64,000 bases of DNA from Phytoactinopolyspora halotolerans (GTDB lineage Bacteria > Actinomycetota > Actinomycetes > Jiangellales > Jiangellaceae). Positions within the stretch are counted from its first letter, which is position 1. Each line of letters begins with the position of its first letter. The stretch is taken from positions 124,001 through 188,000 of the forward strand of contig NZ_JAAGOA010000014.1 of the NCBI RefSeq assembly GCF_010550675.1, read 5' to 3'. The notes under the pieces were generated by a model, which saw nothing but the letters and a program-made list of their open reading frames with translations, made no database searches and had not been told where the DNA came from. The position numbers were made by a program, and so were the translations under genes. Below, one piece after another: positions 12,271-38,132 of the stretch.

Positions 12271-12288
12271 CCCGCGTCTGCTCGACGT

Positions 12289-12348
12289 CGTTGTCTCACG
12301 TAACGTTTGCGCGGCCTACGCCGCGGCTAAGCGTTACGTGAGACAACG
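12289..12348. terminator. Long palindrome after pruA
   Basis: A 17-bp arm (12289-12305, ending CTCACGTAACG) is repeated perfectly inverted at 12332-12348, with an inner GC stem in the 26-nt spacer. It sits between pruA and psuG, so termination of pruA is likely. A diverged equivalent occupies the same position in the duplicated copy at 15825-15890. Confidence 0.75.
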
Positions 12349-12420
12349 AGGTGCGCGTGGGGCCGCGCGGCGGCGCCAGTGCGACGGGGGCCGTGGCCCG
12401 AAGAGGTAGCGTCGGTGAGC

Positions 12421-13362: not shown

Positions 13363-13460
13363 TCGTCGTCGTCGATGGCTCGACGATGTGTGCGCCTTCG
13401 GCGTTTCGAGCCCGTGATTGCGGGTATGGCCTGGCCATCCGATTCCGGTAGGGGGCTGTC

Positions 13461-14009
13461 ATGGCACGTAACACGGTCTTACACGCACTGCACGACGTCG
13501 GGCTTGCCGCATGGTTCGGCGGAACGCTGGCTAATGCGGTCTCGCTGAACCAGGCCGCCAGTGCGGTGGATGATCCCGAAAGCACGGGTACGGTCGCGAA
13601 CGTCGGCTGGAACCGTTGGACGCCGGTCAATGCCGCGGCGATCGGGGTCCACCTCGTCGGGAGCGCGGGACTACTGGCTGCGAACGCGCCTCGGCTCAAG
13701 GCGCAGCAAGGTGTCCTCGCCATGTCTGTGGCGAAGACGGTGCTGACGGCAGCGGCGCTGGGGGCCACCGCCTATGGCCGAGCCCTGGGTGCCAAGGTGT
13801 CGAAGCGACAGGACATGCCAGCGGAAAGCGGCACTGAGCCGGCCGAATCGACGCATTCTGAAGCAGCCGCCGCCCAGCGCCAGCTGTCCATGCTCCAGTG
13901 GGCTATTCCCGCGCTGACCGGCGGGATCGAGGTAATCAGCGCCTACGCGGACGAACAGCAACGAGCCACCGAGGTGCACAAGGGCCTGCTCAACCGCCTC
14001 ATGGGCTGA
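13461..14009 (+). CDS. Conserved membrane-associated protein
   Basis: A 182-residue protein of unknown function. The first half has three moderately hydrophobic stretches (about residues 10-30, 57-75 and 85-105), the middle has an acidic/Ser-rich linker (AESGTEPAESTHSEAAAAQ), and the end (WAIPALTGGIEVISAYADEQQRATEVHKGLLNRL) is helical. First gene of the insert; 3 nt before the next gene, so co-transcribed with it. Confidence 0.7.
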   Translation: MARNTVLHALHDVGLAAWFGGTLANAVSLNQAASAVDDPESTGTVANVGWNRWTPVNAAAIGVHLVGSAGLLAANAPRLKAQQGVLAMSVAKTVLTAAALGATAYGRALGAKVSKRQDMPAESGTEPAESTHSEAAAAQRQLSMLQWAIPALTGGIEVISAYADEQQRATEVHKGLLNRLMG

Positions 14010-14012
14010 ACC

Positions 14013-14717
14013 GTGAGCGAGCAGACTCAAGCTGCTCAGGAGCGTGCGGCGCTCGGGGTCAGGGCGGCCGGCTCGTTGTTCGGAGCCATATTCAGGGCGG
14101 CTGGGGTTCTTCGAGGTGGTAAACCCATACACCCGAAGGGTGTCATCTTCAACGCCGCCATCCGACGTACCGGCTCGCAGGTCGCATGGGGGTGCCCCTG
14201 GCTGGACGAGCGCGGAGAGCATGGTGGAACGGCTCGACTGTCCAGATCAGTCGGCCTCCCCACACCGGTCCCGGATATCCATGGCTTGGCGGTCACGTTT
14301 ATCGGCGATGACGGCGAACGCCACGATGCCCTGCTCGCCACGACAGGGGCGAGCAGGGCGGGCAGGTTCGTCCTCGTTCCCAGATCCGAGCCGTACGGGT
14401 GCACATACGGCTCATTGTTCCCGTACCGATCGCCCCGCGGGCTGGTCCTTGTAGCGGCTTCACCGTTCTCGGCCGTCAGCGCGCCGGATGCGTTGGTGGC
14501 GGTGTCATTTCGCCTTCAGGTGGCGGCAGTGGCAGGGCCGTGGCACACGTTCGGCACACTCAGGTTGACCTCCCCGGAGGACGGGCTGGCAGACGAACCG
14601 TTGCGGTTCGATCCTGTCTTGTATCCGCTGCCGGGCCTGCAATGGCCGATTGCGCTGCAGGGGCTTCGGGAGCCCGCCTATGCGGCCGCGCGCTGCACGC
14701 CCGCACAAGTTGGGTAG
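14013..14717 (+). CDS. Catalase-fold-like protein of unknown function
   Basis: A 234-residue protein. The run KPIHPKGVIFNAAIRRTG..WGCPWLDERGEHGGTARLSRSVGLPTPVPDIHGLAVTF resembles the N-terminal barrel of small catalase-related proteins (KGV/ARLSR/PDIHGLA), but the haem ligand region is not evident, so catalase activity is not claimed. GTG start three nt after the previous stop. The stop lies inside a 15-bp direct repeat. Confidence 0.65.
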   Translation: MSEQTQAAQERAALGVRAAGSLFGAIFRAAGVLRGGKPIHPKGVIFNAAIRRTGSQVAWGCPWLDERGEHGGTARLSRSVGLPTPVPDIHGLAVTFIGDDGERHDALLATTGASRAGRFVLVPRSEPYGCTYGSLFPYRSPRGLVLVAASPFSAVSAPDALVAVSFRLQVAAVAGPWHTFGTLRLTSPEDGLADEPLRFDPVLYPLPGLQWPIALQGLREPAYAAARCTPAQVG

Positions 14718-14740
14718 TGACGAGGTTGGGTAGTGACGAA
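14710..14740. repeat. 15-bp direct repeat at a gene end
   Basis: GTTGGGTAGTGACGA occurs at 14710-14724 and again at 14726-14740, with the stop codon of the upstream gene in the first unit. Probably a small slippage duplication. Confidence 0.6.
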
Positions 14741-14842
14741 TTTGTACGGCGGCGGAGTGACCGCGCCGTGAATGGGTAGGGCTGCACCATTCGAACGACA
14801 ACTGCGTGGGCGGGCCGGTAGGCCCGTAGGGAGGACCATGAC

Positions 14843-15304
14843 ATGTCTGACGACGTAAGAAGAGGCATGACCGCTACACCGGTGCAGGCGGCTGCCACCG
14901 TGGTCGCCGCGGTGTTCTTGGTGATCGGCGTGATGGGGTTCATCCCCGGAATTACTACCGACTTCGATGAGATGCAGTTCGCGGGTCATGAATCCGAGGC
15001 GATGCTGCTGGGAGTTTTCCAAGTTTCGATCCTGCACAACATCGTGCATCTCCTGTTCGGAGTCGTCGGATTATTCCTGGGACGCAGCTTTGCCGGAGCG
15101 CGGAACTTCCTCATCTGGGGAGGTGCGGTCTACGCCGTGCTGTGGCTGTACGGACTGTTTGTCGACGAGGAGAGTTCGGCGAACTTCGTACCGTTGAACA
15201 GCGCCGACGATTGGTTGCATCTGGTGTTGGCCCTCGGCATGGTCCTGCTGGGTGTATTTCTCGGTAGGACGCCGCGCGGCGCGGCGGGCACCGCGCAGAA
15301 CTAA
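14843..15304 (+). CDS. DUF4383 membrane protein
   Basis: A 153-residue protein with four membrane helices (about 12-35, 58-80, 85-105, 125-143) and the DUF4383 signature: PVQAAATVVAAVFLVIGVMGFIPG, FQVSILHNIVHLLFGVVGLFLGRS, and NSADDWLHLVLALGMVLLG. Function is unknown; such genes are widespread in actinobacteria near stress genes. The start is supported by GGGAGGACC some 10 nt upstream. Confidence 0.88.
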   Translation: MSDDVRRGMTATPVQAAATVVAAVFLVIGVMGFIPGITTDFDEMQFAGHESEAMLLGVFQVSILHNIVHLLFGVVGLFLGRSFAGARNFLIWGGAVYAVLWLYGLFVDEESSANFVPLNSADDWLHLVLALGMVLLGVFLGRTPRGAAGTAQN

Positions 15305-15457
15305 ACGATGGACCCGGCGGACCAGGTCATTCCCGCTGACCGCAGAAGCAAGCTCCGGTCAGCGGGGAGTGGATCAGCGCTCGGGCGCAGGTGCAACCCA
15401 CACGTCGAGAACAGTCGAACTGCGGTCGACAGAGATCGGTGTGAGTAGGAGAAGCGC

Positions 15458-15676
15458 ATGCTAGTCAAGAAAATGCACGAGATGGGCGTCAGAAGTGACC
15501 ACGTCTACAACGCCGCTGTGGGCTCTATTGGGCTGTCGGTCATTGCGTGGTTGACATCGAAGAAGGGCGAGAAATCCGGCTCGGCCTGCGCGGACCGCTG
15601 GGGAATCTTCGTCGGGACATGGGCGCCGACCCTGTTCGGGCTCGGCAACGCCTTGCACCAGTACGAGCAGAGATAG
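15458..15676 (+). CDS. Small hypothetical protein
   Basis: 72 residues beginning MLVKKMHEMGVRSDHVYNAAVGSIGLSVIAWL, with one hydrophobic helix and a second weaker one (RWGIFVGTWAPTLFGLGNAL). TAGGAGA precedes the ATG. No recognised family. Last gene of the insert, next to the pruA remnant. Confidence 0.6.
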   Translation: MLVKKMHEMGVRSDHVYNAAVGSIGLSVIAWLTSKKGEKSGSACADRWGIFVGTWAPTLFGLGNALHQYEQR

Positions 15677-15684
15677 GCGCGAAG

Positions 15685-15803
15685 CTGCGGTTCGCGGCCG
15701 GCGAATTTCAGGCCAACGACAAGCCGACCGGCGCGGTCTTCGGCCAGCAGTCGTTCGGCTGGACTCGGGCGTCCGGGACGAACGATAAGGCCGGGGCGCT
15801 GGG
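15685..15803 (+). pseudogene. Remnant of pruA 3' region
   Basis: The translation LRFAAGEFQANDKPTGAVFG..FGWTRASGTNDKAGA aligns with the C-terminus of the intact P5C dehydrogenase (codons near 12082-12200) at about 80 % identity by eye. It has no start, no catalytic parts and no proper end. It marks the edge of a partial duplication or foreign homologous flank. Confidence 0.88.
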
Positions 15804-15824
15804 GGGACCGGTGGCCGCCTTTGA

Positions 15825-15890
15825 CTTCCTGACCTTAGGTTACGTTGGCAGCCGCTGGACGGTCGCCAAGCGTAACTTAGGCCCAGGAAG
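15825..15890. repeat. Palindrome, counterpart of the post-pruA hairpin
   Basis: CTTCCTGACCTTAGGTTACG.. (15825-15849) pairs imperfectly with 15865-15890. It sits between the pruA remnant and the psuG remnant exactly as the hairpin 12289-12348 does in the intact copy, and shares the inner TTACG(T/C)TTGG-like core. Confidence 0.65.
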
Positions 15891-15932
15891 TGGGGCGGCG
15901 GTGAGCGCACGCGGGAAGGTAGCGTCCAGGGT

Positions 15933-16016
15933 GTGAGTCAACGGAGGATTCGCGCCGGCGGTGAGGTGAGCGACGCGCTGGCCTCCGGTCGGCCGGTGTT
16001 GGCGAACCCGCTGTGA
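15933..16016 (+). pseudogene. psuG mini-copy (27 codons) fused to the psuK start
   Basis: The reading frame is MSQRRIRAGGEVSDALASGR followed by PVLANPL and stop. Its first part equals the first 22 residues of psuG, and its end joins the internal VANPL motif and then the psuG stop, so most of the gene was deleted internally in frame. The stop TGA overlaps the psuK GTG, and a TAGCGT box lies upstream. It may still act as a promoter plus leader ORF for psuK. Confidence 0.8.
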
Positions 16017-16969
16017 TCGTCGTCGTCGGGGATGTCGTCACGGATGTCCTCGCTCAGGTCGGTGGCGACGGCGGCGAGCTCGCCATCGGGTCGGACACGC
16101 CTGCCGGGATCCGGATGAGCGGTGGTGGGCAGGCAGCGAACACAGCAGCATGGCTGGCGTCTCTCGGTGTGGACGTCACCTTCGTGGGTGCCGTCGGCAA
16201 TGACCGAGCGGGGGAGGACCGCGTTGCCGAGCTGCGGGATGCCGGTGTCCGCGTGCGGGTGAGTAGGCGGGACGGCATGGCGACCGGTTGCGTGATCGTC
16301 CTGGCGCACGGCGACGAGCGGACGATGATCAGCGATCGAGGCGCGAACGCGCTGCTCGACGCCGACCACGTGGCGGCCGCGATCGGGGAGATCGGACCAG
16401 AGCCGGCCGGCGGCGGCGAGACGGACGTCCGGCACCTGCACCTATCGGGCTATACCTTGCTGGATCCGGCCTCGCGAGCAGCCGGGCTGCGGGCACTGGA
16501 GCTGGCTCGCGACGCCGGTCTCACGACGAGCGTGGACGCGGCGTCGGCGGAGCCGCTGCGGGCCGCCGGTCCGGCGTTCATCGAGTGGATGCGTGGCGTG
16601 GACATCCTGTTCGCGAATACCGCCGAGGCGGAGGTGCTGGCGAGCTACATGGTGCTCCCGGATGGCGGCCGACCGGCTGATCCGGCGCAGTCGGTTGATC
16701 CGGCCCGTCAGGCGTCCGGCCTGGCGCGGCGGACGGGCGGCGAAGTGGTGGTCAAGCTCGGCGACGCCGGAGCGCTGTGGTCGGACGGCGTCCAGGTGAT
16801 CAGGCATGACGCTGTTCCGGTGCGCGTCATCGACGCGACAGGTGCCGGCGACGCGTTCGCGGCGGCGTTCCTCGAGTCTTGGACGCGTACGCGCACCAGG
16901 CCCGAGACGGCGCTCGCGGTGGGTTGCGCGCTCGGGGCGGAGGCTGTCGGTCACGTTGGCGCTCGGTAG
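16013..16969 (+). CDS. psuK: PfkB-family sugar kinase, probable pseudouridine kinase
   Basis: A 318-residue PfkB/ribokinase-family kinase. GDVVTDVL at the start, SGGGQAANTAAWLASLGVDVTFVGAVGNDRAGED (signature 1) and DATGAGDAFAAAFLE (signature 2, catalytic Asp and anion hole) are present. By its association with psuG (the insert separates sequences that join naturally) it is the pseudouridine kinase that makes pseudouridine 5'-phosphate for PsuG. Its GTG overlaps the stop of the psuG mini-copy. Ribokinase-type activity on another nucleoside sugar cannot be excluded. Confidence 0.85.
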   Translation: MIVVVGDVVTDVLAQVGGDGGELAIGSDTPAGIRMSGGGQAANTAAWLASLGVDVTFVGAVGNDRAGEDRVAELRDAGVRVRVSRRDGMATGCVIVLAHGDERTMISDRGANALLDADHVAAAIGEIGPEPAGGGETDVRHLHLSGYTLLDPASRAAGLRALELARDAGLTTSVDAASAEPLRAAGPAFIEWMRGVDILFANTAEAEVLASYMVLPDGGRPADPAQSVDPARQASGLARRTGGEVVVKLGDAGALWSDGVQVIRHDAVPVRVIDATGAGDAFAAAFLESWTRTRTRPETALAVGCALGAEAVGHVGAR

Positions 16970-19526: not shown

Positions 19527-19591
19527 CTCGGTCAGCTCGCCGCCGTCGCGTCGTGGCCGTCGGCAGGGCAGTGGCACGCGTCGTGGTCACG

Positions 19592-19657
19592 CTTCCTGGC
19601 TCCATGTTTCGTTTAATGCCGCCGACGGGTGGTCAAGCGCAACACAGGGCCAGGAGG
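19592..19657. repeat. Imperfect palindrome after the desaturase gene
   Basis: CTTCCTGGCTCCATGTTTCG.. (19592-19614) pairs imperfectly with 19635-19657. It resembles the palindromes at 15825 and 29545 (shared CTTCCTG outer arm and TTnCGyTT inner arm) and lies between convergent genes, so it may terminate both. Confidence 0.5.
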
Positions 19658-19708
19658 CGCCGCGGGTGACGACAGCGAGTGCTCGATGACGGACCGGTGG
19701 GTGCCCGG

Positions 19709-27159: not shown

Positions 27160-27900
27160 GTGGTGGCTGGTCATTCGGTGCTCGATATCGGTGCTCGGCT
27201 CCGATCCGAGCGGTCGAGGCGGGGGATCAGCGCCCGAGCGCTGGCACGCGAGATCGGCGTGTCGCCGAGCCTGATCTCGCAGATCGAGACCGGCAAGAGC
27301 CGGCCGTCGGTGAGCACGCTCTACGCGATCACCAACGCCCTGGGTGTGCCGATCGAGACCCTGTTCGACCGCGCCGATCACGTGCCGTCGGCGGTGAACG
27401 TCGTCGACCAGGTCGCACGTCCGCACGACGCGGAGCTGGCCGCGCTGGCGGCGGCCATCCACGGCGGGACGGAGCGGCCGGAGACGGCCGGCGACGCGGA
27501 GGAGCCCACGTCGTCCGGACCAGGGCTGCGGATCCTCGGGCCGGATCGGGAACGCGAAGTCGGCCCTGTCGTGCAGCCGGCCGAACGCGAGGTGCTGACG
27601 CTGGACTCCGGCGTCACCTGGGAACGCCTCGGCCAGGTGCCCGGCACCCATGTCGATTTCTTGCGCATCACCTACGAACCGGGTAGCACGTCGGCCAGCA
27701 ACGGCCGGTTGATGCGCCACCCCGGGTTCGAGTACGGCTACGTCGTGGGCGGCGAGCTGATCCTGACTCTCGGGTTCGACGAGTACCGGCTGGGCGTCGG
27801 CGACGCGGTGTCCTTCGACTCCACGACGCCGCACGGCTACCGCAACGACGGCATCGAACCTGCTGTCGGCATCTGGTTCGTGCTCGAGACCGATCAGTGA
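27160..27900 (+). CDS. XRE-family regulator with C-terminal cupin
   Basis: A 246-residue regulator. Residues 8-65 form an XRE helix-turn-helix ([54 protein letters not shown]), and the last 90 form a cupin sensor domain ([48 protein letters not shown]). Such proteins repress or activate adjacent catabolic genes in response to a small ligand. GTG 27160 has AAGGAGGAG a few nt upstream. It faces the seven-gene operon across 169 bp. Confidence 0.9.
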
Positions 27901-27928: not shown

Positions 27929-27958
27929 AAGTCGGGTCTTGCCGTGCTCGCGTGTTAA
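27929..27958 (+). repeat. 30-bp direct repeat, left copy
   Basis: AAGTCGGGTCTTGCCGTGCT plus ten more bases ending GTTAA; the same 30 bases with one change recur at 29612-29641. The two copies enclose the AbiE module. Confidence 0.85.
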
Positions 27959-28081
27959 GGCCCGTCATATGCGTGCAGGTTCGGTCCCTCAGGTAGTCAG
28001 TCTGGCTCCGCAGGGCATCGAGGGCGCATGGCCGATGGACCTCACAGTGTGAACGACGATTGGCGGTGATGTCATGTTCGT

Positions 28082-28942
28082 CTATCGGGTGGGGACATTG
28101 TCGATACGGTGAATGAAGTCGGTGAGGTACCGGATGGCTTCGTCCAGATCGGCCGGAGCCTCCGGGTGTTCACGCACGAGTAGTGGATAGTCGTGCGCCC
28201 ACGAGGGCGACGGTTTGACTATCGGCGGCCAGGCGTGGCTCGCTCGACGGCTGAAGGTCTCGATCGCCGCGTCACGCACAGCCTGCAGATCGTCGGCAGC
28301 AAGCAACCCTTCCAACAGCCAGATGTCGATCAGATCGCGGACCCTGTCATTGCCGTCCGGGTGTGGCTCGGTGCAGGCATGCAGCTTCTGAGCGATCTGA
28401 TACGGCACGTCCAGACATGGCACTAGGCGAGGCGGGTCAATGTCGAACTCGGCGAGCACAATTCCTTGCGGTTGTACGAGCGTATGCCGCTTTCCTGTGC
28501 GCTCGTCGATGGCAACCTCGAGGCTTGTGGAGCCGAAATCCCGGCCCTCATAGCGTATTTGGAGCGCCACCCGCCATGGCCGATACCCAAGCCCCGGCAC
28601 ATCGATTTCCAAAGGTGGGGCCTTACGCTCGACTGTGAAGCCGTTCCACGTGCGCTCAGCGATCGCCTCATCGAACCGATGTAGCCACGTGTCCATGTGA
28701 CCTCGAAAGATCACGTCAAGATCAGTTGTGGCGCGTGCACGGATGCCCAGACGTAGCTGCATCGCAGTGCCGCCCTTGACGATGAACAGATGCCCGCCGT
28801 CGTCGTGGCGGACCGCATCCAGCATGGCGCATACAACGGCGACCCGTACCAGATGCATGACTCGTTGTGGTAGTTGTCCGATCTGAGCAGAATGACGCTG
28901 CAACAGGCGTTGGAACTGTTTGGCGCCAGCGGGTCGACCCAT
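28082..28942 (-). CDS. AbiEii/AbiGii-type nucleotidyltransferase toxin
   Basis: A 286-residue protein of the AbiEii/MenT nucleotidyltransferase family: GHLFIVKGGTAMQLRLGIRARATTDLDVIFRG contains KGGTA and the RxTxDLD metal-binding motif, and DRVRDLIDIWLLEG is the later conserved segment. Such toxins block growth by acting on tRNA or other nucleotide targets, and give phage abortive infection. It begins 10 nt after the antitoxin stop, in the usual antitoxin-toxin order of the operon. Confidence 0.92.
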   Translation of the reverse strand: MGRPAGAKQFQRLLQRHSAQIGQLPQRVMHLVRVAVVCAMLDAVRHDDGGHLFIVKGGTAMQLRLGIRARATTDLDVIFRGHMDTWLHRFDEAIAERTWNGFTVERKAPPLEIDVPGLGYRPWRVALQIRYEGRDFGSTSLEVAIDERTGKRHTLVQPQGIVLAEFDIDPPRLVPCLDVPYQIAQKLHACTEPHPDGNDRVRDLIDIWLLEGLLAADDLQAVRDAAIETFSRRASHAWPPIVKPSPSWAHDYPLLVREHPEAPADLDEAIRYLTDFIHRIDNVPTR

Positions 28943-28952
28943 CTCGAGCCCC

Positions 28953-29492
28953 TTACGTGGTCAGTTGTGCGAGCAGCGCTTCGCGTTCATCGACACGGAT
29001 CGCCCCGCGTTCAGCGGCTGTGGTGATGGCCTGCCGGACCAGGGCAATAGGAACTGTACTGAGCGCATCTGTCAATGTCCGCCTGATTGTTGTCACCACC
29101 ACGGCCTCGATCTGGGTCACCTCATCGCGGCGGAGATCGGCGCGGTGCACGACGTACATCTCTCCGCCAGATCGGTTGATCCGGTACGCGCGCGGTACGG
29201 TGAGATGCACGTGGGCGGGGTTGATGTCACAGAGCTGGTGAATCAGAAGCGCCGAATCGTGCGAGATGACACCACGTCCTCGGGTGAACAAGCGTGCCAG
29301 GATGAACTCGTCGAACGGCTCTCGTGGTAAGGCGGGTACCCGGTACACGCCGTGCCCGACTCGCTCTAGCGTGCCCCGTGACGCCATCTTGCGAAGTTCA
29401 ACCGGCGGTACGTCCGGTACCAGCGCAGGTGTGACGTATCCGCCTTGCTCGACAGCGACGTCCATCACCGCGTTCCAATACTTGCCTGGCAT
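28953..29492 (-). CDS. AbiEi-type antitoxin
   Basis: A 179-residue antitoxin and autorepressor with an N-terminal winged helix (VAVEQGGYVTPALVPDVPPVELRKMASRGTLERVGHGVYRVPALP) and the AbiEi C-terminal domain (ISHDSALLIHQLCDINPAHVHLTVPRAYRI ... RRTLTDALSTVPI). AbiEi neutralises AbiEii without forming a stable complex (type IV) and binds its own promoter. An inverted repeat lies 9-25 nt upstream of the ATG. Confidence 0.9.
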   Translation of the reverse strand: MPGKYWNAVMDVAVEQGGYVTPALVPDVPPVELRKMASRGTLERVGHGVYRVPALPREPFDEFILARLFTRGRGVISHDSALLIHQLCDINPAHVHLTVPRAYRINRSGGEMYVVHRADLRRDEVTQIEAVVVTTIRRTLTDALSTVPIALVRQAITTAAERGAIRVDEREALLAQLTT

Positions 29493-29500
29493 GTAAAAAC

Positions 29501-29517
29501 AGTACCAAAAGGGTACT
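29501..29517 (-). promoter_or_regulatory. Inverted-repeat operator of the AbiE operon
   Basis: AGTACC-AAAAG-GGTACT, a perfect 6-bp dyad in an AT-rich island just upstream of the antitoxin ATG (29492). AbiEi proteins are known to bind inverted repeats at their own promoter; assignment here is by position. Confidence 0.65.
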
Positions 29518-29544
29518 CTTTTTGTGAGTTCCGCTCATGACGAG

Positions 29545-29618
29545 CCGACTTCCTGAGGGGAGGTAACGCTTGGACGCTCCTGAGCAACGCTAAGCGTTAC
29601 CTACCCTCAGAAAGTCGG
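29545..29618. repeat. Long imperfect palindrome beside AbiE
   Basis: CCGACTTCCTGAGGGGAGGT.. (29545-29572) pairs with 29590-29618 (ending CAGAAAGTCGG), over about 24 of 28 positions. The inner arms (GTAACGCTT / AAGCGTTAC) recur in the palindromes at 12289 and 15825. Its right arm runs into the right 30-bp direct repeat. Confidence 0.75.
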
Positions 29619-29641
29619 GTCTTGCCGTGCTCGCGCGTTAA
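29612..29641 (+). repeat. 30-bp direct repeat, right copy
   Basis: Matches 27929-27958 at 29 of 30 positions (a T/C change near the end). Together the repeats bracket 1.65 kb holding only the AbiE pair and its palindrome, as expected for a module gained or movable through short direct repeats. Confidence 0.85.
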
Positions 29642-29756
29642 TCGGTGGCGCCGATTCGGACCGTGCGGATAGCGTGTCGGTCAAGCACGGGCCGTGGAGG
29701 GAAGGCAGTGGCGCGGTCGCCGACCGGCTACTGCGACAAGTGAGGAGGTGAGGGCC

Positions 29757-29813
29757 ATGACTGTGAGATTCGCATGCCTGATGCCCGTTCACCTCGAGGC
29801 GCCTCCACGCTGA
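29757..29813 (+). CDS. Possible leader peptide ORF upstream of rsgA
   Basis: An 18-codon ORF, MTVRFACLMPVHLEAPPR, with a very strong AGGAGGTGA ribosome binding site (29743-29751) and its stop 50 nt before the rsgA ATG. Rich spacing and the excellent ribosome binding site suggest it is translated. It may be a regulatory leader peptide; nothing more is shown. Confidence 0.45.
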   Translation: MTVRFACLMPVHLEAPPR

Positions 29814-29863: not shown

Positions 29864-31015
29864 ATGATGTCTCATCCACGCGAAAACAACTCGCACGCCC
29901 AATCACACGATGGCAACCCGCACAACGGTGCCCAGATCATCCCGTTCCCTACCGGTCATGTCCCGGCGACCGAGGCCGCTGAGGCGTTCCGTCCCTACGC
30001 CGGATCGCACGCCCTGGGCCGGGTCAGCCGGGTCGAGCGCGGCGGCGCCGAGGTGCTGACCGCCGATGGCGAGCTGCTGGCGACCTACGGCGGCGATGTG
30101 CTGGCGGCGGCCGCCACTGACCGGTCCCGCTTCCCGGCCGCCGGCGACTGGGCCGCGGTGCGGCGGTGGCCGGATGGACGCATCACGCTCGACGCCGTGC
30201 TGCCGAGGCGAACCGCCCTGGTCCGAGACGGTGTCGACCGGACATCGCACGGCCAGGTGGTGGCGGCGAACATCGACCTGGTCGTCATCGTCGAACATCT
30301 CGACCCGGAACCGGACGTGGGTCGGATCGAGCGGCTGCTGGTGCTGGCCTGGGGGAGCGGCGCCACTCCGCTCGTCGTGCTGACCAAGGCGGACCTGGTG
30401 CCCGATGCGGAAGGCATGCGTGCGGAGGTCGCACGGAACGTCTTCGGGGTGGACGTCCTCGCGGTCAGCGTGACCGAGGGCGACGGGATGGACGAGCTGA
30501 GCCGACGACTGACACCGGAGATGACGATGACGCTGGTCGGCCCGTCCGGTGCGGGCAAGTCCACGCTGGTGAATACATTGGCCGGAGCCGAGGTGATGCC
30601 CATCGGCGACGTCCGCGAGCGCGACGGCAAAGGCAGGCACACCACCACCCACCGGGAGCTGATCACGCTCCCCGGCGGCGGTGTCGTCATCGATACACCC
30701 GGCGTGCGAGCCGTGGGCCTCGTCGCCGACGACGAGGCGATAGCCGAGGTGTTCCAGGACATCGAGGAACTCGCCGCCGAGTGCCGGTTCCGCGACTGCT
30801 CGCACATGTCCGAGCCGGGCTGCGCCGTGCTGGAGGCGATCGACGACGGCGAACTCGGCGAGGATCGGTTGCTGCGCTGGCGCAAGCTCGGCCGGGAGGC
30901 CGCCTATCAGGCCCGACGCGCCGACGCGCGGCTGCGGCAGCAGGAACGGAACCTGTGGAAGCAACGCGAGAAGGCGCTTCGCCAGCATTACCAACACAAG
31001 GGCCGCCGCCGCTGA
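29864..31015 (+). CDS. rsgA: Ribosome small subunit-dependent GTPase RsgA
   Basis: A 383-residue circularly permuted GTPase that helps 30S subunit maturation. After an N-terminal OB-fold, the G motifs appear in the order G4 (LTKAD), G1 (VGPSGAGKSTLVNTL) and G3 (DTPGVR), and a zinc site follows (CRFRDCSHMSEPGC). The C-terminal helix is rich in Arg/Gln. The ATG at 29864 follows AGGAAGG; the 50-residue N-terminal extension up to GSHALGRVSRV is polar and not conserved. A hairpin follows the stop. Confidence 0.96.
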   Translation: MMSHPRENNSHAQSHDGNPHNGAQIIPFPTGHVPATEAAEAFRPYAGSHALGRVSRVERGGAEVLTADGELLATYGGDVLAAAATDRSRFPAAGDWAAVRRWPDGRITLDAVLPRRTALVRDGVDRTSHGQVVAANIDLVVIVEHLDPEPDVGRIERLLVLAWGSGATPLVVLTKADLVPDAEGMRAEVARNVFGVDVLAVSVTEGDGMDELSRRLTPEMTMTLVGPSGAGKSTLVNTLAGAEVMPIGDVRERDGKGRHTTTHRELITLPGGGVVIDTPGVRAVGLVADDEAIAEVFQDIEELAAECRFRDCSHMSEPGCAVLEAIDDGELGEDRLLRWRKLGREAAYQARRADARLRQQERNLWKQREKALRQHYQHKGRRR

Positions 31016-34452: not shown

Positions 34453-35289
34453 ATGCGGATACTGGTGACCGGAGCTGCCGGGCGGATCGGACGTGCTGTT
34501 CTGCAGCTGCTCGCGGATGAGGGGATCGAGGCCAGCGCGCTGGTCATGAACAAGGCGGACGCGGACGACTTGCCGGCGGACCGGATCACAGTCGGTGACG
34601 CCACCGAACGGGCAACCGTGGCCGCTGCGGTGCAGGAGGTGGACGCCGTCATTCACCTGGCGGCGATCCCGAACCCGCTGCACGATCCGCCGGAGCGGGT
34701 GTTCGCGGTGAACACCCAGGCGACGTTCGCGGTCTTGGAGGAGGCTGCGCACGCTGGAGTCCGCCGGGCGGTGTTCGCCAGCAGCCTGTCGGCTACCGGG
34801 CTGCCGTTCGCCCCGCACGAACTGCATCCGCTCTACCTGCCCCTCGATGAGGACCATCCGGACCAGGCCGCGGATGCCTATGCGCTGTCCAAGCAGGTGG
34901 ACGAGGCCACGGCGGCGATGATGGCGCGTCGGCACGGCATGACCATCGTCGCGTTGCGCTACCCGTACGTCGCATCTGCGGAGCAGCTGCGGGAGCGTGC
35001 CGAGCAGCTGGCGGGCGACCCCAGCGGAGGCGCTGGAGACCTGTGGTCCTACTTGGATGTTCGGGATGCGGCTCGCGCTGCTCTGGACGGGGTCCGGGCG
35101 TCGTGCACGGGTATGCACAGGCTCTATGTGGCCGCATCGGAGATCCTCGCGCCTGGACCGACCGAGGAGCTGCTGCGCAGGTACCACCCGTCGGCGGAGC
35201 TGCGGCGGCCGCTGCCAGGACGGACCGGGACGATCGACACTGCTGCAGCCACGCGCGTCCTCGGCTTCACCCCTCGCCACTCCCCATGA
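34453..35289 (+). CDS. NAD-dependent epimerase/dehydratase
   Basis: A 278-residue extended-SDR protein: VTGAAGRIGRAVLQLL (NAD fold), VIHLAAIPNPL, ASSLSATG and YALSKQVDEA with catalytic Tyr and Lys, and SYLDVRDAARAAL. Sugar or steroid epimerase/reductase; substrate unknown. ATG 34453 is followed directly by the Rossmann strand (MRILVTG). The stop lies within the left arm of the hairpin at 35282-35340. Confidence 0.9.
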   Translation: MRILVTGAAGRIGRAVLQLLADEGIEASALVMNKADADDLPADRITVGDATERATVAAAVQEVDAVIHLAAIPNPLHDPPERVFAVNTQATFAVLEEAAHAGVRRAVFASSLSATGLPFAPHELHPLYLPLDEDHPDQAADAYALSKQVDEATAAMMARRHGMTIVALRYPYVASAEQLRERAEQLAGDPSGGAGDLWSYLDVRDAARAALDGVRASCTGMHRLYVAASEILAPGPTEELLRRYHPSAELRRPLPGRTGTIDTAAATRVLGFTPRHSP

Positions 35290-35340
35290 TCATGAACACT
35301 TCCCGTGCTATGTGAACGGTAAGTGTTCATGATCATGGGG
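35282..35340. terminator. Perfect 20-bp-arm hairpin, first copy
   Basis: CCCCATGATCATGAACACTT (35282-35301) is repeated inverted at 35321-35340, and the pairing extends inwards with one mismatch around GCTATGTGA. It includes the epimerase stop and ends just before the regulator promoter. An almost identical hairpin follows the ABC permease (37983-38033). Confidence 0.85.
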
Positions 35341-35342
35341 AT

Positions 35343-37982: not shown

Positions 37983-38033
37983 ATGATCATGAACACTAAC
38001 CGTGCTATGTGAACGGTAAGTGTTCATGATCAT
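37983..38033. terminator. Hairpin nearly identical to that at 35282, second copy
   Basis: ATGATCATGAACACT (37983-37997) pairs with 38019-38033; the loop GCTATGTGA and the flanking GAACGGTAAG are the same as in the first copy. It follows the permease, after a short tandem GACCCGGACGAT tract. Confidence 0.85.
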
Positions 38034-38132
38034 GGGTCGAAAGCGTTGGCCGGCTGCAAGCGCGGCTGTACCGCGGATCGGTACGCTGCCGCGGTCCGAC
38101 GATCGAGCGCGGAGCGTGGGGAGCAACAGCAG

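Follow-up and report, generated by a model that had tools for sequence, protein, structure and literature searches.

The window, which is the whole stretch of 64,000 nucleotides analysed here from Phytoactinopolyspora halotolerans, carries an AbiE toxin–antitoxin pair between an xre-cupin regulator gene and the GTPase gene rsgA (Table 1). The abiEi gene lies directly upstream of abiEii with 10 bases between them, both on the minus strand, which is the AbiE gene order, and a probable operator sits directly before the AbiEi start. PADLOC also calls the pair (9e-70 and 4e-58). AbiEii-type toxins are characterized by the motifs GG-x15-DhD and +DxxD in the available text of PMC3985639; inspection by eye of the AbiEii translation reveals GG-x15-DLD and, as motif IV, RDLID, which together with PF08843 give it the features of a DUF1814 toxin of AbiE type IV. 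Judged from its genes, this is a conventional type IV toxin–antitoxin module. It resembles known AbiE type IV systems (S. agalactiae AbiEi/AbiEii and the M. tuberculosis Rv2827c family) in having AbiEi followed by AbiEii, nucleotidyltransferase motifs and a palindromic operator before abiEi, and it differs from them in its borders, which consist of direct repeats and a palindrome of the family termed P below; no further unusual feature was seen. The nearest AbiEii relative outside the genome has 39% identity (393 genomes of the class, E 1e-30). Five relatives occur on plasmids at 29–34% identity; none was found in phages and none was confirmed in viral contigs.

Table 1. Features of the window. 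G000 is the host genome, G001–G004 are congeners and R1 is the covariance model of P.
Feature	Position	Strand	Basis or remark
P copy	12280..12357	.	model R1; not found at matching place of G002, G004
P copy	15819..15896	.	model R1; inside insertion relative to G002, G003, G004
P copy	19586..19663	.	model R1
xre-cupin regulator, left neighbour of insertion	27160..27900	+	Pfam HTH_3, Cupin_2
Left 30-bp direct repeat	27929..27958	+	starts AAGT, the right-edge sequence of palindrome P
AbiEii toxin, DUF1814 nucleotidyltransferase	28082..28942	-	PF08843 1.9e-21; PADLOC
AbiEi antitoxin/repressor	28953..29492	-	PF13338 6.5e-7; PADLOC
29-bp imperfect palindrome, probable AbiEi operator	29495..29523	.	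sequence
P copy beside AbiE	29543..29620	.	model R1, 72.3 bits
Right 30-bp direct repeat	29612..29641	+	overlaps right arm of P
rsgA GTPase, right neighbour of insertion	29864..31015	+	PF03193

Insertion between xre and rsgA

The AbiE module is an insertion, because two of the four congeners, G001 and G004, keep the same neighbours without it. In both, an upstream peptidase-like gene, xre-cupin, rsgA and sir2 follow one another with a short xre–rsgA spacer. In G001, G002 and G004 the xre-cupin gene adjoins this upstream gene as well, and rsgA has its best matches, at 72–79%, in the other four Phytoactinopolyspora genomes; G003 keeps rsgA and sir2 and has a different left neighbour. The G+C content of the cassette is lower (0.607) than that of the window (0.678). 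Acquisition of the cassette, as originally predicted, is supported by the empty site and by this lower G+C content. A second acquisition is visible in G002, where ~4.9 kb of other DNA separates xre from rsgA (L102 5486-10415) and the insert carries a second xre tail (136 bp, 81%) and a piece of rsgA (71 bp, 96%). Because G002 holds other genes with duplicated flank pieces at this place, the place appears to have taken up DNA repeatedly, and comparison of the genomes marks the xre–rsgA spacer as a small hotspot that acquired genes more than once in Phytoactinopolyspora.

The direct repeats are identical at 29 of 30 positions, start 1683 bases apart and, as the original prediction had it, enclose the AbiEi/AbiEii pair together with its operator and a long palindrome; the predicted overlap of one repeat with a palindrome arm is also confirmed and amounts to the outer 10 bases of the right arm. 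With up to 3 mismatches, a 24-base core of the repeat has two matches in the window (against none in 100 shuffles), and the 30-mer occurs at 2 places in the whole genome (7,303,666 bases), both at AbiE, rather than many times without a cassette. No inverted pair of at least 12 bases that would represent the terminal inverted repeats of an insertion sequence or transposon links the two cassette ends. The sequence TGACGA precedes both the left repeat (27924) and the left foot of the palindrome (29538); these 6 bases are suggestive at most of a true repeat of ~35 bp with the palindrome lodged within its right copy.

Such a layout could be that of a small cassette integrated site-specifically by a recombinase at the 30-bp repeat, with the palindrome as part of the att site. 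Two near-identical repeats that are unique in the genome, together with an empty site in two congeners, fit this idea, which had been put forward in the original prediction. We nevertheless consider it very improbable. Among relatives of other species, G001 and G004 have the xre–rsgA arrangement without AbiE, and no single copy of the repeat was found in them, the 24-base core being absent from all four congeners. There is no recombinase gene among the open reading frames of the cassette, repeats of this kind are missing from two further AbiE loci, and palindrome copies are found genome-wide whereas the repeat is not.

The right repeat abuts the promoter region of rsgA, and congeners share an AATC(A/G)GTGGC-like sequence at that place. 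When the repeat and its right flank are aligned with congener spacers, shuffled sequences score as well as the best alignments in 4.6% (G001), 23% (G004) and 13% (G002) of cases, and these alignments suggest only weakly that the whole 30 bp might be native to the rsgA promoter region. Within the window, positions 29740-29812 form a conserved leader before rsgA, which consists of GTGAGGAGGTGA, a short open reading frame starting ATGACTGTG and then TTCACCTCGAGG, and is similar in congeners; TTCACCTCGAGG could pair with the ribosome-binding site.

A dispersed family of palindromes

The palindrome beside AbiE has arms at 29542-29571 and 29592-29621 that are 90% complementary, with a folding z of −6.05. 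Because R1 copies occur genome-wide and in relatives, it is assigned by sequence to a dispersed repeat, P, rather than to AbiE. Alignment of 16 copies over 78 bases indicates covariation: 13 of 24 pairs have changed on both sides, which is reached in 0 of 500 shuffles. R1 was searched in 31 genomes with at most 150 candidates scored in each, and all R1 counts here apply to those candidates. Strand matches occur in 14 of the 31 genomes and are most numerous in G000 (71, at ~35 places), G004 (68) and G002 (62), followed by G015 (36), G010 (31), G005 (27) and G014 (20), with 1–12 in seven more. G003 and G001 have 7–8, nine other Jiangellaceae have 1–36, and five Jiangellaceae and 12 genomes of other families have 0 among the same number of candidates.

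In its loosest form, the P core pattern GTAACGYTT-N20-AARCGTTAC is present 8 times in G000 (in one case with 21 bases separating the halves), 7 times in G004 and once in G002, and the reversed pattern is present in none of them. Across genome contigs it occurs in 26 stretches, mostly of unrelated phyla, for which a hand estimate gives ~15 expected by chance; one, from Phytoactinopolyspora endophytica, is identical to the G002 palindrome region. Four of the 26 (L076, L083, L084, L088) lie in one Pontiellaceae genome, which is above chance there, and six stretches with the pattern were seen in viral contigs. Rfam holds no matching family for the AbiE-side palindrome, the one stretch submitted; a mir-1269 hit on it (E 0.86, far below the gathering score) is a chance match.

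Copies of P were also considered as gene-end terminators. With crude gene calls, 49 of 63 copies lie beside at least one 3′ end compared with 122 of 171 gaps generally, which is no clear enrichment, and the terminator role was rejected. Spacers are too diverged between species for the exact empty site of any P copy to be aligned. One segment of the window, 13389-16020, is an insertion relative to G002, G003 and G004 and holds a P copy and a gene-tail copy (12082-12196/15685-15799, 82%). A candidate duplicate block near 15.9 kb (12404-12485/15918-15999) was discarded because its ungapped identity is 24%, against 73% in the BLAST piece. Elsewhere in the window, at 35281-35341 and 37983-38036, near-identical palindromic sites CATGATCATGAACACTT...AAGTGTTCATGATCATG lie 2.7 kb apart near genes that by eye look ArsR-type.

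A predicted AbiEi–Vsr protein and its palindromes

Clusters of P led to a partner gene that encodes a 348-residue protein (L237 1079-2125; G000:C34:135978-137021 in the host genome). An AlphaFold prediction from 22 aligned members has a pLDDT of 88.8. In this model, residues 23-218 match the S. agalactiae AbiEi antitoxin (Z 9.5, rmsd 5.3 over 181), and residues 221-330 match the I-Bth0305I catalytic domain (Z 11.7), NGO0050 (11.0) and Vsr (9.8), with rmsd 2.5–2.8 over 91–105 residues, which indicates a Vsr-like fold. With Foldseek alone only AbiEi is significant, and I-Bth0305I is weak (E 0.57). Pfam finds AbiEi_4 in 21 of the 22 members. The candidate catalytic residues E226, D257, E268, D270 and K274 are invariant in all 22. 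No Pfam transposase family, the IS200/IS605 type (HUH, Y1) included, is found in the 22 members at E 1. By prediction, then, the protein joins an AbiEi antitoxin fold to a nuclease of the Vsr/I-Bth0305I type, and it probably cuts DNA. It resembles Vsr-like homing endonucleases such as I-Bth0305I in its predicted C-terminal fold and differs from I-Bth0305I in being fused to an AbiEi-like fold and associated with palindromes. According to the accessible part of PMC7319586, characterized AbiEi proteins bind to inverted repeats within the promoters of their own genes; recognition of the palindrome by the AbiEi-like part is therefore plausible by analogy. Of 60 genomes, 30 encode homologues at E 1e-20, and these include 10 of 38 genomes from other actinomycete families. 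One, annotated DUF559, is on a plasmid; none was found in phages and none was confirmed in viral contigs.

In the host, P lies 18–20 bases from each end of the nuclease gene (L237), and the gene also has P on both sides in G004 and G002. Among 20 close-clade loci, 13 have an R1 copy next to the gene (11 of 18 when the two loci that served to build the model are left out) and 5 have one on each side, so that 15 lack it on at least one side. The 20 loci of a clade at 40% identity have no R1 copy beside the gene. That clade was wrongly taken as a palindrome-free control, because several of its loci bear long hairpins of other sequence; L240, L242 and L257 each carry one and the same hairpin to the left and to the right of the gene.

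Left and right flanks were also compared with each other, with a score of 16 or more as a pass. Jiangellaceae nuclease loci pass in 13 of 38 cases and fail in 25 (L228 and L230 were dropped for short flanks), compared with a pass rate of 3.8% for mismatched left/right pairs and of 1 in 30 for rsgA loci. Mismatched pairs are the better yardstick because control flanks are partly coding (one flank at AbiEii loci, and often one at rsgA loci). Passes are concentrated in close-clade Phytoactinopolyspora (8/8), with 0/10 in close-clade loci of other genera and 5/20 in the other clade. In a second set, 10 of 28 nuclease loci pass against 1 of 29 rsgA and 0 of 20 AbiEii loci (Fisher 1e-4; L196 and L215 of the nuclease loci, L028 of rsgA and L066 and L067 of AbiEii were dropped for length), where the locus sets overlap partly and related species are not independent. 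Among homologues at 29–37% identity, 6 of 10 pass; of the 9 testable ones from other actinomycete families, 5 have matching flanks that bear hairpins, against 1 of 49 control loci. L215 was also excluded here because a contig end made its flanks overlap, and L216 (G009) belongs to Jiangellaceae and so stands outside the 5 of 9.

A palindrome specific to one genome accompanies a paralogue of the nuclease gene in G003: it has 10 near-identical places in that genome, two of which flank the gene, and 0 in nine other genomes. Since P lies beside the gene, flanks match at part of the loci and the G003 palindrome stands beside its paralogue, the nuclease gene and its palindromes go together in at least some members of the family. 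Between species, flank similarity also follows protein similarity (0 of 1000 permutations reach it), but this was rejected as proof of co-evolution because 42 of 53 similar pairs match further out too, so that shared location explains most of it. Many nuclease genes have thus been inherited in place rather than freshly moved. Of the other 11 similar pairs, 6 match inside the hairpin.

The palindromes could instead be operators or terminators, with the AbiEi-like protein as an autoregulated repressor with scattered sites and the nuclease acting elsewhere, for example on phage DNA. Promoter binding by AbiEi proteins, as far as PMC7319586 covers it, and the many P copies near gene ends would agree with such a role, which we judge unlikely because P also lies behind the 3′ end of the nuclease gene, is missing at matching places of congeners and, in the G003 case, has a counterpart that is present in ten near-identical copies in a single species but absent from nine further genomes.

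Units bordered by P and their possible origin

The host genome has a second toxin–antitoxin module with a border of the same kind. A HipBA module (L095 5272-7238, G000:C34; HipA_C 1.5e-50) lies between 138-bp direct repeats (95%) that consist of 61 bases followed by P and end 4 bases past the AAGT edge of P; the AbiE repeat begins with AAGT, the same edge sequence. Its neighbour is a copy of the nuclease gene with an internal stop and P on both sides. Nuclease genes lie between direct P copies in G000 (91%) and G002 (88%), as do, in G004, a PF04754 (YhgA-like) gene (92%) and a CRISPR array of ~25 units of 61-bp period (L183 2804-4358, 85%). Ten P copies, type I-E cas genes and an ImmA/IrrE-like gene (PF06114) occur in an island of G004 (L182-L184, G004:C1:1290000-1346000) flanked by genes that are, by eye from their translations, a nudix gene and pyrG. 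The palindrome matters because at both toxin–antitoxin modules the repeat is bordered by the palindrome edge. An att function of the 30 bp is unsupported. The P edge is proposed as a break or entry point because the AbiE and HipBA borders and other units sit at or between P copies, with the link to the AbiE insertion being a border shared by two modules, P on one side only of AbiE, and the duplicated piece at AbiE on the opposite side of the P edge from that at HipBA.

Repair unrelated to P is another possible origin of the AbiE repeats, if a rather unlikely one. A staggered break or one-sided homologous recombination would have left the 30-bp repeat as a filled-in or re-used end, with the palindrome there by coincidence. 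A break with a 30-nt stagger would yield the AbiE layout, and in G002, where the xre–rsgA spacer holds other inserts, flank fragments are duplicated around them and no P copy was found there. Against coincidence, the repeat starts exactly at the palindrome edge and HipBA has a border of the same kind.

Repeats with a dedicated enzyme are known from REP palindromes, for which the known enzyme class is the RAYT transposase, as described in the available part of PMC2817692. As in REP/RAYT, the palindromes here are dispersed, genome-specific and flank the gene of a DNA-cutting protein, here a predicted one; copies of one family flank the enzyme gene on both sides in part of the loci (5/20 with R1; G003). 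Flanking palindromes are inverted in REP/RAYT, as far as that source covers them, but mostly direct here (9 of 13 loci around the nuclease gene, with 2 inverted, 1 tie and 1 without a match), and the enzyme is an IS200/IS605-type transposase there and an AbiEi–Vsr fusion here. The copy number here, about 10 to 35 per genome, is a further difference. A repeat with a cognate enzyme is a known kind of system, and an AbiEi–Vsr protein as its nuclease would be new; a literature search, whose coverage excludes most subscription papers, turned up no publication connecting such a nuclease to palindromes.

Our best reading is a system of repeats plus enzyme that resembles REP/RAYT but uses another enzyme, and in which palindromes mark the entry of toxin–antitoxin or defence cassettes. 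The AbiE pair would have been inserted between xre and rsgA beside a palindrome that belongs to another gene, that of the AbiEi–Vsr protein. The AbiEi-like part would recognise the palindrome and the nuclease part would cut at or near its edge; repair of the break would then copy the palindrome to new places or capture a cassette, and leave direct duplications bordered by the palindrome edge. Taken as a whole, this account is evenly poised between right and wrong. If it is true, an unrelated nuclease with its own palindromes would make the origin of such repeats and their role in cassette capture directly testable.

A wider reading is doubtful. It would make this an actinomycete gene-gathering system in which the AbiEi–Vsr nuclease and its own hairpins provide landing places for AbiE, HipBA and a CRISPR array, and build edge-bordered rows of defence genes, with hairpins between them, without help from any known type of integrase or transposase. 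In integron gene cassettes, a gene is followed by a hairpin repeat; genes and toxin–antitoxin modules are likewise followed by a hairpin repeat here, in places in short rows, but the hairpins are scattered over the genome. What brings defence genes together in islands is an open question, and the P-flanked nuclease may point to a new route by which bacteria accumulate them. PADLOC AbiEi models score the AbiEi–Vsr fusion at 3.8e-13 (L237 1079-2125), and defence-gene finders may label it an AbiEi antitoxin.
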